NCBI RefSeq assembly: GCF_026419855.1
Contig: NZ_JAOAKP010000003.1
Coordinates: 1 to 61,950 of the forward strand
Source of the DNA: Methanothrix sp.
Lineage (GTDB): Archaea; Halobacteriota; Methanosarcinia; Methanotrichales; Methanotrichaceae
Reading direction: 5' to 3'
Length of the DNA: 61,950 nt
Each line of letters opens with the position of its first letter. Position 1 is the stretch's first letter. Made by a program: the position numbers and the translations under genes. Shown here piece by piece: positions 54,468-57,952 of the stretch. Under the pieces are notes generated by a model, which was given only the letters and a program-made list of their open reading frames with translations, was not told the DNA's origin and did not search any database.

Positions 54468-54884
54468 TCAGAAAAGCTCCCTGAGCAGCCTCACAGCCTC
54501 CTCATACCTTGATGGATATGTTGCGACGTGCACCGACACATCTATAGCGTCGCCGGCATCAGAGAGTCTGATCATGCCCCTGTACGCTGCCTGTTTGTCC
54601 AGACGGAGATGCAGCTTGCAGTCGTCATCAACCCTCTCAGGGATCTCCCTGCGCAGCCTGGTGAGGTCACCGGCGGAGAGCTGCTCCTTGAGCGTGTGAA
54701 CGAACTCCAGACCCTCCTTTCTCCGCAGCTCTGCCTCCAGAATGGTTATCGGGTTTCCGTAGTAGCCTGTGGCCCTGGATGACCTGATGTACTCGAGGGG
54801 GACGAAGATCGAGAGGGCTCTCCTGACCCTCTCCTCATCCTCAGTAACCGACACGAAAGCTCTGAAGTGAACTCTGTGGATCAC
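54468..54884 (-). CDS. Archaeal RNA-binding protein (exosome-linked family)
   Basis: A 138-residue protein of the archaeal RNA-binding family typically encoded beside L15e and RNase P genes. The N-terminus [24 protein letters not shown], the [14 protein letters not shown] strand and [15 protein letters not shown] motif are typical. It is small, soluble and basic/acidic mixed. The exact RNA target is not established. It overlaps the L15e gene by 4 nt. Confidence 0.85.
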
Positions 54885-55468
54885 TTACCCCTACCGTGAT
54901 GAGCCCTTATGCTGGGGCGGGTCTTCTCCGTCCCGATTCCCTTCCTGCGCAGACCGCGTCCCTTCTTGCCTGCGCTGGTCTTGCCCCTTTCGGCCCTGCC
55001 TCTGTGAGAGCCGCCGCAGATCCAGTTGAGATCCTTGTCGCTCTTTATGGCAGGATGATGCGGATCGACCAGTATAACCTCAAACCACTTGTGCCTGCCG
55101 TCCTGCCCAACCCAGTACGAGTTCAGGACCTCCATGTTTCTGAAGCGCCTGGATGCCCGCTCCTCCGCAATCCTCTGGAGGCTCTTTCCCGGGTTCTGCC
55201 TGTGCATGGCCATGTGCTTAGTCCTTCTGTTCCTGACGTATCTGGACTTCCTCAGGGCACCCCTTCTCACCCTCACCCTGGCCAGCACTATACCCTGCTT
55301 CGCCTTGTATCCAAGCGCCCTAGCCCTGTCGAGTCTCGTCGGCCGCTCAATTCTCTGAACGCTCATCTCACGCCGCCAGGCTATCATCCTCTGCGCTCTG
55401 AGCCGTCCCACATAGCTCTTCGCGGGAGAGTTCCAGGCATCTCTTATGTATCCGTAGAAAGACCTCAA
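54881..55468 (-). CDS. rpl15e: Ribosomal protein L15e
   Basis: A 195-residue basic large-subunit protein. It starts [15 protein letters not shown] and contains [52 protein letters not shown] and a final arginine/glycine-rich tail [20 protein letters not shown]. The first gene of the RNase P/proteasome/exosome run on this strand. Length is normal. Confidence 0.95.
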
Positions 55469-55561: not shown

Positions 55562-56242
55562 TCAGAGGAGGTCTGAGAGCACGTTCTTCCTCAGCTCCGA
55601 GTCCCTCACGAGAAACCTGATCCTCAGCCTCCCGCCCACCCTGACCTTGCTCACAAAGATCTGCTGCTCAGATCCGGCCTCTGCGATGATCTTCTCGACC
55701 TCAGACCTCAGGTCATCCGATATCTCCAGCTCCTCCTCCCGGGCTGTGATCCAGTTGTAGACGCGCACCCTGTTCCTCCTGCCCAGGGGTTTGAGCCAGC
55801 CCCATTCTGCATCCTCAAGAGCATATGCGACAGGCCATGATATCTCCCTGCATCGATCGTCAGGCTCGCAGTAGCTCAGCCCGCTGAGCCCCAGATCAGG
55901 GTAGCCCTTAGCCTTGCTCTTTATGGTGCGGCATGACGGACAGTGCATCCTGGCAAACCACTTCCTGAAAAGAGATTCGCTCAGGCCGGATCTCTCGGCA
56001 AAAATCTTCCAGAGCTGCAGGGCATCGTCTTCGCGCCAGCCGGCCTGGCCGAGGAAGGAGGCAAGAACTGCTCCAGCTCTATTGCTCCCCTCCTCAGATG
56101 CTCTGAGGAGCATGTTCCTCATGCACGGAGGAAACCGATCCTCCGGTATCCTCTCCATGGATATCCATAGGTATCTCTCGCGTGAATCCACCGAAATTAC
56201 AGATACCGGTACCTCCGAGCCCTCTCTCAGCTTGAGCCTCAT
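55562..56242 (-). CDS. Primase large-subunit-like Fe-S protein
   Basis: A 226-residue protein. Its middle part (PPCMRNMLLRASEEGSNRAGAVLASFLGQAGWREDDALQLWKIFAERSGLSESLFRKWFARMHCPSCRTIKSKAKG...SYCEPDDRC) has the pattern of the C-terminal [4Fe-4S] domain of archaeal/eukaryotic primase large subunit PriL, with the PPC-x-R start, N-R helix, CPSC and last cysteine. The N-terminus is a short beta domain and the C-terminus a small beta/alpha domain (FVSKVRVGGRLRIRFLVRD), so it is not PriL itself. It overlaps the marker-14 gene by 4 nt. Role unknown. Confidence 0.65.
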   Translation of the reverse strand: MRLKLREGSEVPVSVISVDSRERYLWISMERIPEDRFPPCMRNMLLRASEEGSNRAGAVLASFLGQAGWREDDALQLWKIFAERSGLSESLFRKWFARMHCPSCRTIKSKAKGYPDLGLSGLSYCEPDDRCREISWPVAYALEDAEWGWLKPLGRRNRVRVYNWITAREEELEISDDLRSEVEKIIAEAGSEQQIFVSKVRVGGRLRIRFLVRDSELRKNVLSDLL

Positions 56243-57753
56243 CTTCTCAGATGGCCCTCTGCGACATAATCGCTGACCACATCTCTTCTATCAACCTGCG
56301 GTATGCCTGCCATCGGGAGCTTGCTCTTCTCGTACTCAATTCTCTCCTTCAGTATGCACTTCCCTCCCCGGATCCCGCCCATTGGGTTCTTTGGTGTGCC
56401 CATCGAGTTCATGCATCTCGCCATGACAGCTGCGCCGCGTGCAAGCCCGTCGTCAACGAAGACTATATTCTTCTCAGGCTCATCATACAGGTCCAGACGG
56501 CCGATCTCCTCCAGGATCAGCTCCGGCTTGTTCCCCGATATTCCAGCTCTCCCTGTAACGCCTATGGCAGTCCTCTTTGTGACAAGCCCCTCCTCGATCG
56601 CGACCTCAACGAGCCTCCTGGCTATCTTCGCGCTCACAAGATCAAGTGTGGCAGAGAGCATCTTCAAACCATCTCTCCTGTAGATCTCCCCACCTATCTC
56701 AGATAGCTTGTTCAGCTTCGAGCCGTTTTCGCCGCAGTCGCAGCCTATCAGCACGACCCCAAGCTTCTGCGCTGCTGCGGCGTTGAGGGGAACATAGCCG
56801 TACCGTTTCATTCCAACAGGCACACGTTCCACTTTTATGAGATGGTCTATCTCCTCGGCATAGAGCCTCGCCTTCTTGTTCACACCAGAGTTCTTATCTT
56901 TAAAGAGATCGAGCGCTGTGCCTGTGGTCGGGTCAACAAGACCCGTCCCCCTGACCACAGCATCTGGTATTGCGCCTGCAATGCCGCAGAAGTTGCCTAT
57001 CGTCCTCGCGTATGGAATCTCCTCGCTGGTTATCCTCCCATCGAGGGTCGTGCCGAAGTCCATTGCGAGGCATGGGTTCCTGAAGTCGACGTCTGTCCAC
57101 TTTGCGCCCTGCTTTATTCCAGCGGTCGCAAGCTCACCCTCCATCTCGTTCGCCACGATCTCGACTCCAGTCGCGCCCATCGGCGGCCAGACCGATGCCA
57201 CCGGGCCGTTGAAAACGATCTTATCTATGAGCGAGTACCTGCGGAACCTCTCAGGGATGTTGTGTATGGACATCGCAGGAGTCATCAGCCTTGGAGGCAC
57301 TCCGGCATCGAGGCAACCCTGCGCCAGCGCCTGGATGAATATGCCAACCTCCTCTGGTGAGTCGAACTCGGCGACAACTCCTGTGGACCTCACAACGAAG
57401 TTGAGATCCCTTTCGATCAGGAGGCCGGCTGCCCGATGGCTCTCGAGCAGGGTATCCTTGACAAGCTCCGCGATCGATTCCTTTGTGAGTGGCGTGCCGC
57501 ATATGGTCCTGCCGAATATCTCCTCGCCAGGCTTCGGCGGCCTGACATCCCTCGTCATGCGGACGGTCTTGTTGACTATCTGCGTCTTGCCTGTGTCCAT
57601 ATCTGTGGCTGTGAGTATCGATTTTGTAGTTGTATTTCCCACCTCCACGGATGCCACCATGTAGTACGGCTTGCTCCTGAGCTCCAGCAGCTTCACCGGT
57701 GGGCTTTCAGCTATCCTTGGTTTTGGCCTGAAGAGACGACGGGAGATATTCAT
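56239..57753 (-). CDS. Methanogenesis marker protein 14
   Basis: A 504-residue protein of the methanogen-specific marker 14 family. It has an actin/ASKHA-like phosphate-binding start (VASVEVGNTTTKSIL), then LAMDFGTTLDG and VLIGCDCGENGSKLNKL and GVTGRAGISGNKPELILEEI; the C-terminus holds VFVDDGLARGAAVMARCMN. This pattern suggests an ATP-dependent activase-like role related to a corrinoid or methyl-coenzyme M reductase activation, but no function is proven. ATG 57753 (MNISRRLFRPKPR) is chosen; upstream reading is not protein-like. Confidence 0.9.
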   Translation of the reverse strand: MNISRRLFRPKPRIAESPPVKLLELRSKPYYMVASVEVGNTTTKSILTATDMDTGKTQIVNKTVRMTRDVRPPKPGEEIFGRTICGTPLTKESIAELVKDTLLESHRAAGLLIERDLNFVVRSTGVVAEFDSPEEVGIFIQALAQGCLDAGVPPRLMTPAMSIHNIPERFRRYSLIDKIVFNGPVASVWPPMGATGVEIVANEMEGELATAGIKQGAKWTDVDFRNPCLAMDFGTTLDGRITSEEIPYARTIGNFCGIAGAIPDAVVRGTGLVDPTTGTALDLFKDKNSGVNKKARLYAEEIDHLIKVERVPVGMKRYGYVPLNAAAAQKLGVVLIGCDCGENGSKLNKLSEIGGEIYRRDGLKMLSATLDLVSAKIARRLVEVAIEEGLVTKRTAIGVTGRAGISGNKPELILEEIGRLDLYDEPEKNIVFVDDGLARGAAVMARCMNSMGTPKNPMGGIRGGKCILKERIEYEKSKLPMAGIPQVDRRDVVSDYVAEGHLRR

Positions 57754-57952
57754 GGTTCCCGCATATGCATGAGATACATTAAAACCTTTGGAGAATTCCT
57801 CTGAACCTTTAGCTGCCCCTGGCAAGTGTCGATGCATATGAAATCCTAAGCTCTCCATAATTTATAGTACTCCGCATAAGTTTATATAATATTGCATATT
57901 ACATAAAATCGTGTATGAAGTGTGATATATCCAGAAGATTTTAAATTGGCTT

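Follow-up and report, generated by a model that had tools for sequence, protein, structure and literature searches.

Why should the Fe-S motif of the primase large subunit (PriL) appear in a small protein encoded next to a methanogenesis marker gene? The question is raised by a 61,950-nucleotide stretch of DNA from Methanothrix, the whole of which we call the window. The Methanothrix branch consists of methane-making archaea that live on acetate. An ORF on the minus strand (55562-56242), with an ATG start and an open frame, encodes a 226-aa protein containing the motif FPPCMRNML...SNRAG...HCPSC...C...C. Upstream of it lies the gene for methanogenesis marker 14 / DUF2114 (56239-57858, minus strand; TIGR03285, 673 bits; PF09887, 764 bits). 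Downstream is the gene for ribosomal protein L15e (54881-55468, minus strand; PF00827), the first of an RNA-processing/proteasome cluster that continues with PF01877, PF01876, PF01900, and PF00227.

A PriL-type domain nested in a conserved host protein

The resemblance to PriL, which the initial annotation had proposed, was borne out by a profile search. The Pfam family DNA_primase_lrg (PF04104) matched residues 29-88 with 35.5 bits (E 8.7e-9) against a curated cut-off of 22.4 bits, which rules out a chance motif, and 23 of the 24 aligned relatives also matched it at E <= 0.01. Searches of PDB sequences were weak, with the best primase large subunit at E 0.8 for the single protein and at E 0.0088 for a 24-row profile of its family. 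The flanks, as also proposed, are unlike those of PriL: the best NCBIfam PriL model scored 27.1 bits, far below its cut-off of 339, the PriL N-terminal (PriS-binding) domain is absent, and the 28 residues that precede the Fe-S domain match another family. Neither a primase catalytic part nor a helicase is fused to the protein. The PHROG collection gave no match to it at E <= 0.5, and a pattern scan of the genome contigs found two close relatives only.

A split PriL was ruled out as well, as a full PriL is present elsewhere in the genome (335 aa; PF04104, 119.6 bits; contig C70, adjoining a PCNA_C gene). The 226-aa protein is therefore not the cell's PriL, and PriL annotations in Methanothrix genomes, which can fall on it, should be treated with caution. 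Nor is it a free-standing Fe-S protein. The view of a stand-alone carrier had to be given up, because the domain turned out to be an insertion inside a small protein found throughout the class.

This host protein belongs to an unnamed family of ~140-aa proteins. An insert-free profile found the family, counted with or without the insert, in 198 of 237 Methanosarcinia genomes and in 142 of the 150 genomes of good quality in the class; in a phylum-wide sample it occurred in 80 of 392 genomes, all 80 of them Methanosarcinia. Three insert-free members gave no match in Pfam or NCBIfam, and a search of PDB sequences with the insert-free host profile gave none either. We label the Methanothrix family f1, two of its genera g5 and g9, and other families f3 (which we take to be Methanosarcinaceae), f5, and f7. 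In g5 and g9, the same position between the marker-14 and L15e genes encodes a shorter protein, similar to the longer form at its ends only. In the alignment, the insert-free form continues through the point at which the longer form has ~110 extra residues.

Based on this comparison, residues 1-28 (56159-56242, minus strand) and residues ~142-226 (55565-55819, minus strand) of the window protein belong to the host family, and residues 29-141 (55820-56158, minus strand) form the insert, a PriL-CTD-type domain with a putative Fe-S cluster. The C-terminal flank matched insert-free relatives in hhalign at 99.4% probability (E 1.8e-21). The short N-terminal flank scored 37.1 against the same relatives, compared with 17.0 for the best of 100 column-shuffled controls. 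In an AlphaFold2 model of the whole protein (mean pLDDT 85.9), a strand spanning residues 10-28 is followed by helices within 39-141, strands within 148-174, a helix at 176-188, and strands within 193-214. Together with the alignments, this shows that the PriL-CTD-type domain is nested in frame within the host protein, between its strands.

The fold of the host part itself is less clear. In VIA, its best matches in the full model were SilF (Z 6.6), eIF5A (5.9), LEF-3 (5.9), and gp32 (5.6), which we take to be mainly OB folds, all below the Z of 8 under which a match may reflect just a common arrangement. A model of the insert-free form (pLDDT 75.2) gave a best VIA Z of 3.9, to folds other than OB, and Foldseek found nothing in the PDB at E <= 0.001 for either model. 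An OB fold is a five-strand barrel whose third and fourth strands are joined by a helix, and we tentatively describe the host part as OB-like in its predicted structure.

Of the 60 genomes searched (G000 and 59 relatives), 37 are from f1, and 25 of these have the full-length protein with the insert. With 13 further f1 genomes, the insert is present in 36 of 50, the insert-free form in 11 (one of which, G022, runs off the contig end), and neither form in 3 (G031, G226, and G234). We placed these states on a marker-14 tree of 41 rows, which covers 24 of the 25 insert loci (without L006) and 9 of the 11 insert-free f1 genomes (without G026 and G032). The 24 insert rows form one clade (support 92/88) and the nine insert-free f1 rows a separate one (100/97), with eight outgroup rows, whose genomes carry the insert-free form, falling outside. 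A single gain on the insert stem, which covers most of the Methanothrix family, is the simplest reading of this tree. Insert-bearing and insert-free genera share the same gene slot, and they provide natural with/without pairs for studying what the domain contributes.

The insert has also been maintained. In pairwise comparisons among five of the six members of the genus (L006 was omitted), its dN/dS was 0.06-0.24 in nine of ten pairs and 0.42 in the tenth, for which dS was only 0.027; the flanks gave 0.19-0.35 in all ten. These ratios show purifying selection on the insert within the genus.

The inserted domain and its mobile-element relatives

Profile-profile comparison connects the insert with two sets of proteins. 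Against 16 cellular PriLs, hhalign gave 97.4% probability (E 9.2e-12, 102 columns), and against 12 viral or proviral domains it gave E 1.9e-46 over 119 columns. The window domain is 31-43% identical to the six proviral domains of alignment A3. Scored against a domain profile to which inserts and also six proviral rows had themselves contributed, the inserts and the viral rows reached 140-176 bits, a second mobile-type group of domains (MG2) 31-101 bits, and cellular PriL 12-25 bits. In the inserts, the viral rows, and five of the nine MG2 rows, a long loop marked by GYP-LG separates the second cysteine from the third. Cellular PriL lacks this loop; the intervening segment has 20 residues in the window protein versus 8 in cellular PriL. 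We also built a tree from a 72-row domain alignment, for which nested hits (one sequence lying wholly within the other) were collapsed, and from which L006 (assigned to no group) and L153 (a partial domain match with one internal stop) were left out. PriL is split from the inserts, viral rows, and MG2 at 100/100 support. Judged by these comparisons, the insert is of a mobile-element subtype, much closer to the domains of viral and proviral primase-like proteins than to cellular PriL.

The carriers of these related domains are primase(-helicase)-like proteins. They are found in f1 genomes, in seven IMG/VR contigs, and in two circular Caudoviricetes records, vir525 and vir515, which have Methanosarcinales as their host; both records have tape-measure genes, and vir515 has a major head gene. 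A plasmid collection contained no matching record. Where not cut by a contig end, the carrier proteins are ~930-1290 aa long. PF04104 matches are patchy among the six large genome-encoded carriers, being above the cut-off in L045 and L047, below it in L046, and absent from the Pfam results for L048-L050, yet all six align with the inserted domain. A further carrier, L105, passes the PF04104 cut-off.

A D5_N match and P4-type primase C-terminal matches were found in four of the six large carriers scanned. In the N-terminal part of the carriers, AEP-like motifs could be seen by eye. A PDB profile search with this part found no primase. Its hhalign comparison with 12 PriS sequences gave 1.6% probability and a score of 23.9 (30 column shuffles reached at most 20.4), touching only a stretch that resembles AEP motif III. 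The term primase-like for these carriers is based on their matches to helicase/primase families, on how vir515 is annotated, and on the presence of the PriL-like domain.

Several features of the carriers deserve separate mention. The C-terminal halves of L045 (3636-6890), L047 (3591-7001), and L105 (5059-8547) have no Pfam D5/SF3 helicase match, and that of L045 has a weak match to sigma-70 region 4 / HTH. These three proteins may carry unrecognised helicases or DNA-binding parts. In the MG2-type sequences L144-L147, from f3 and f5 genomes, the domain ends ORFs of 448-544 aa, and L148 is a 138-aa fragment; a Pfam scan of L145 gave a sub-threshold PriL match only, and the N-terminal parts of L144 and L145 can be aligned to the corresponding parts of the viral proteins. 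In both circular viruses, the primase-like gene is immediately preceded by a gene for a protein of ~200 aa (L112, 18469-19068; L113, 18361-18954), which is possibly a nuclease paired with the primase.

We also considered whether an SSB-like gene beside a viral primase-like gene had supplied the flanks of the window protein, and we rejected this because the upstream genes gave no supporting match. Pfam gave no match for the gene upstream of the vir525 primase-like gene. For its vir515 counterpart, the Pfam matches were all sub-threshold, the stronger being with a type I restriction N-terminal family.

Origin and role of the insert

We propose that a cellular protein acquired a virus-type primase Fe-S module, which would serve it as a nucleic-acid-binding part; we hold this explanation with moderate confidence. 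On the evidence of the domain comparisons, we favour a primase(-helicase)-like protein, viral or from another mobile element, as the source of the insert, because the closest relatives that we found sit in such proteins and have the long loop in common with the insert. The domain would have been inserted once into the host protein and then kept by selection. In primases, the PriL C-terminal domain binds single-stranded nucleic acid or 5' ends. By analogy, the insert, possibly with the OB-like platform around it, may bind the same kinds of target. The charge of the domain lends this no support, since the insert is near-neutral, with a median net charge of 0.5 (compared with -3 for PriL, -3.5 for the viral domains, and +6 for MG2). 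The product would then be a non-catalytic nucleic-acid-binding accessory factor, and neither a second primase nor an enzyme of methanogenesis.

A PriX-like role is the alternative that retains most weight, and we regard it as unlikely on balance. Here the insert would dock on PriS/PriL or on the template and tune priming. The structural comparison gives this idea some footing. The predicted insert resembles primase large subunits, in agreement with the initial annotation, and PriX is among its best matches: VIA aligned it to yeast Pri2 with Z 6.8 (99 residues, 3.5 A, 22% identity), to PriX with Z 6.7 (4wyh) and 6.6 (5of3_F), and to human p58 with Z 5.7, all modest values in the range where a common arrangement could suffice. 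The genome, moreover, encodes both PriS and PriL for such a subunit to act upon. Against it, the gene is on contig C81, apart from priS (C60) and priL (C70), and the domain is of the mobile-element subtype rather than the cellular one. Genomes that lack the insert also conserve the host protein, whose basic role therefore does not depend on the Fe-S domain. A PriX-like role and the capture of a viral module are compatible and do not exclude one another.

Another alternative concerns the metal. The alignment suggests a [4Fe-4S] cluster on Cys40 (the FPPC cysteine, PriL ligand position 1; 56123-56125), Cys104 (position 2; 55931-55933), Cys125 (position 3, after the long GYP-LG loop; 55868-55870), and Cys131 (position 4; 55850-55852), all encoded on the minus strand like the extra conserved Cys101 (55940-55942). 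If the PriL-type cluster had been lost, the cysteines might instead hold zinc in a structural domain, and Cys101 does form a CPxC pair with Cys104, of a kind also common in zinc sites. We consider this improbable, because each of the 28 insert rows retains all four PriL ligand positions in the same order, the third being offset by the longer loop, and because the host organisms are strict anaerobes, in which Fe-S clusters are easily retained.

All five cysteines are invariant in the 28 insert rows, and the 16 viral rows keep them in 9, 9, 16, 16, and 15 cases, in the order 40, 101, 104, 125, 131. In the 19 cellular PriL rows, the columns of Cys40 and Cys131 are cysteine throughout, and Cys104 is cysteine in all 72 rows of the alignment. 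The Cys125 column is cysteine in 8/9 MG2 rows and 0/19 cellular PriL rows, because the third cysteine of cellular PriL is nearer the second (TYGNC) and falls in a different column; the Cys131 column is cysteine in 8/9 MG2 rows. Cys101 is matched in only 1/9 MG2 and 1/19 cellular PriL rows.

Some mobile-element members depart from this pattern. In one viral subgroup (L048-L050, L109-L111, and L113), WCP(F/L)Y replaces FPPC and the first cysteine is shifted by two residues, with Ser in place of the extra cysteine; the three members of this subgroup that come from whole genomes (G024, G028, and G030) are all in insert-free g9 genomes. In L047 (3591-7001), a Ser aligns at the place of the fourth cluster cysteine, so some members from mobile elements may have an altered cluster or none.

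Could the domain have travelled the other way, arising in the cellular protein and being acquired later by the primase-like proteins of mobile elements? In the 72-row tree, the viral rows (VIR) and MG2 are supported at 84/84 and 89/100, and the inserts (INS) need two changes. None of the AU tests rejected its topology: a single insert clade (p 0.51), INS with VIR (p 0.52), and VIR with MG2 against INS with PriL (p 0.40 and 0.36). The tree thus allows both a single insert clade and VIR with MG2 as one side, which is compatible with transfer from the cell, and since four tests reject none of three splits, neither the branching order of the groups nor the direction of transfer can be read from it. 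The contexts of the homologues speak against an origin in the cell. All of these homologues, whether viral, MG2, or cellular PriL, are primases or primase-like, so a primase context would be the simplest ancestral state; the insert arose within one family, while genomes of f3 and f5 contain MG2 relatives. We therefore judge an origin in the cellular protein to be as doubtful as the zinc site.

Less probable still is a redox- or oxygen-sensing regulator linked to methanogenesis through marker 14. The coupling to marker 14 noted in the initial annotation holds within f1: in the window the two genes overlap by 4 nt (56239-56242), and the genes are adjacent at 25/25 insert loci. They are equally adjacent at 9/9 insert-free f1 loci, so the adjacency is a trait of the family that is independent of the Fe-S domain. 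Outside f1 the coupling fails. At 13/13 f3 loci examined, the host gene is flanked by a rhomboid gene and an NYN-domain gene, and the fetched stretches of these loci contained no marker-14 match. Marker-14 linkage consequently says little about function, and we rejected the idea that a functional link with marker 14 is the leading clue.

In f3, the order rhomboid, host protein, NYN (L104, 4001-6128, and 12 other loci) constitutes an uncharacterised conserved module, with NYN proteins ~81-95% identical to that of L104. These neighbours were found at none of five host-gene loci from f5 and f7. In the window's genome, the rhomboid and NYN genes occur together on another contig, and thus the host gene seems to have moved.

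Finally, it is very improbable that the captured viral domain acts antivirally, as a copy that the cellular protein presents and that vies for the ends of primer or template, or for partners of the viral primase, and so blocks replication of head-tailed viruses with the related domain; models of defence families gave no match in the four proteins compared with them.

Relation to known primase systems

The capture of a virus-type module, our preferred explanation, places the window protein beside several described systems. The insert is like the C-terminal domain of cellular PriL in its profile match, the order of its four cysteines, and its predicted helical fold. It differs in that the window protein is without the PriL N-terminal domain, has the domain nested in another protein, and has an extra invariant cysteine. 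The viral and proviral primase-like proteins of Methanosarcinia have the same GYP-LG subtype of the domain. They also have a large N-terminal part and, in 4/6, D5_N and P4-type matches, whereas the window protein has neither.

PriX of Sulfolobus, a member of the PriSLX complex, is a diverged PriL-CTD that forms a separate small primase subunit and is not known to have a cluster. The predicted insert matches its fold at modest Z (6.6-6.7), and for the window gene no linkage to primase genes was seen.

Mobile elements provide two further points of reference. PolpTN2, from the Thermococcus plasmid pTN2, is described as a PriS-PriL fusion with a PriL-like Fe-S domain (PMC3973330). A second source describes PriL as nearly exclusive to chromosomal primases and PriCT as occurring only with the primases of mobile elements (PMC5862659). 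On these accounts, PolpTN2 and PriCT resemble the relatives of the insert in placing a PriL-like Fe-S domain on a mobile element (PMC3973330, PMC5862659). In both, the domain stays fused to a primase; the window insert, in contrast, sits in a cellular protein that is not a primase.

In the literature searched, mostly non-subscription, we found no report of a PriL-type domain inserted in a non-primase cellular protein. The PriL Fe-S domain is described in these two sources as tied to primases, whether cellular or mobile (PMC5862659, PMC3973330). Here, a virus-type form of the domain is nested in a conserved cellular protein of another family, and the window protein thereby offers a small carrier in which the domain can be studied apart from a primase.
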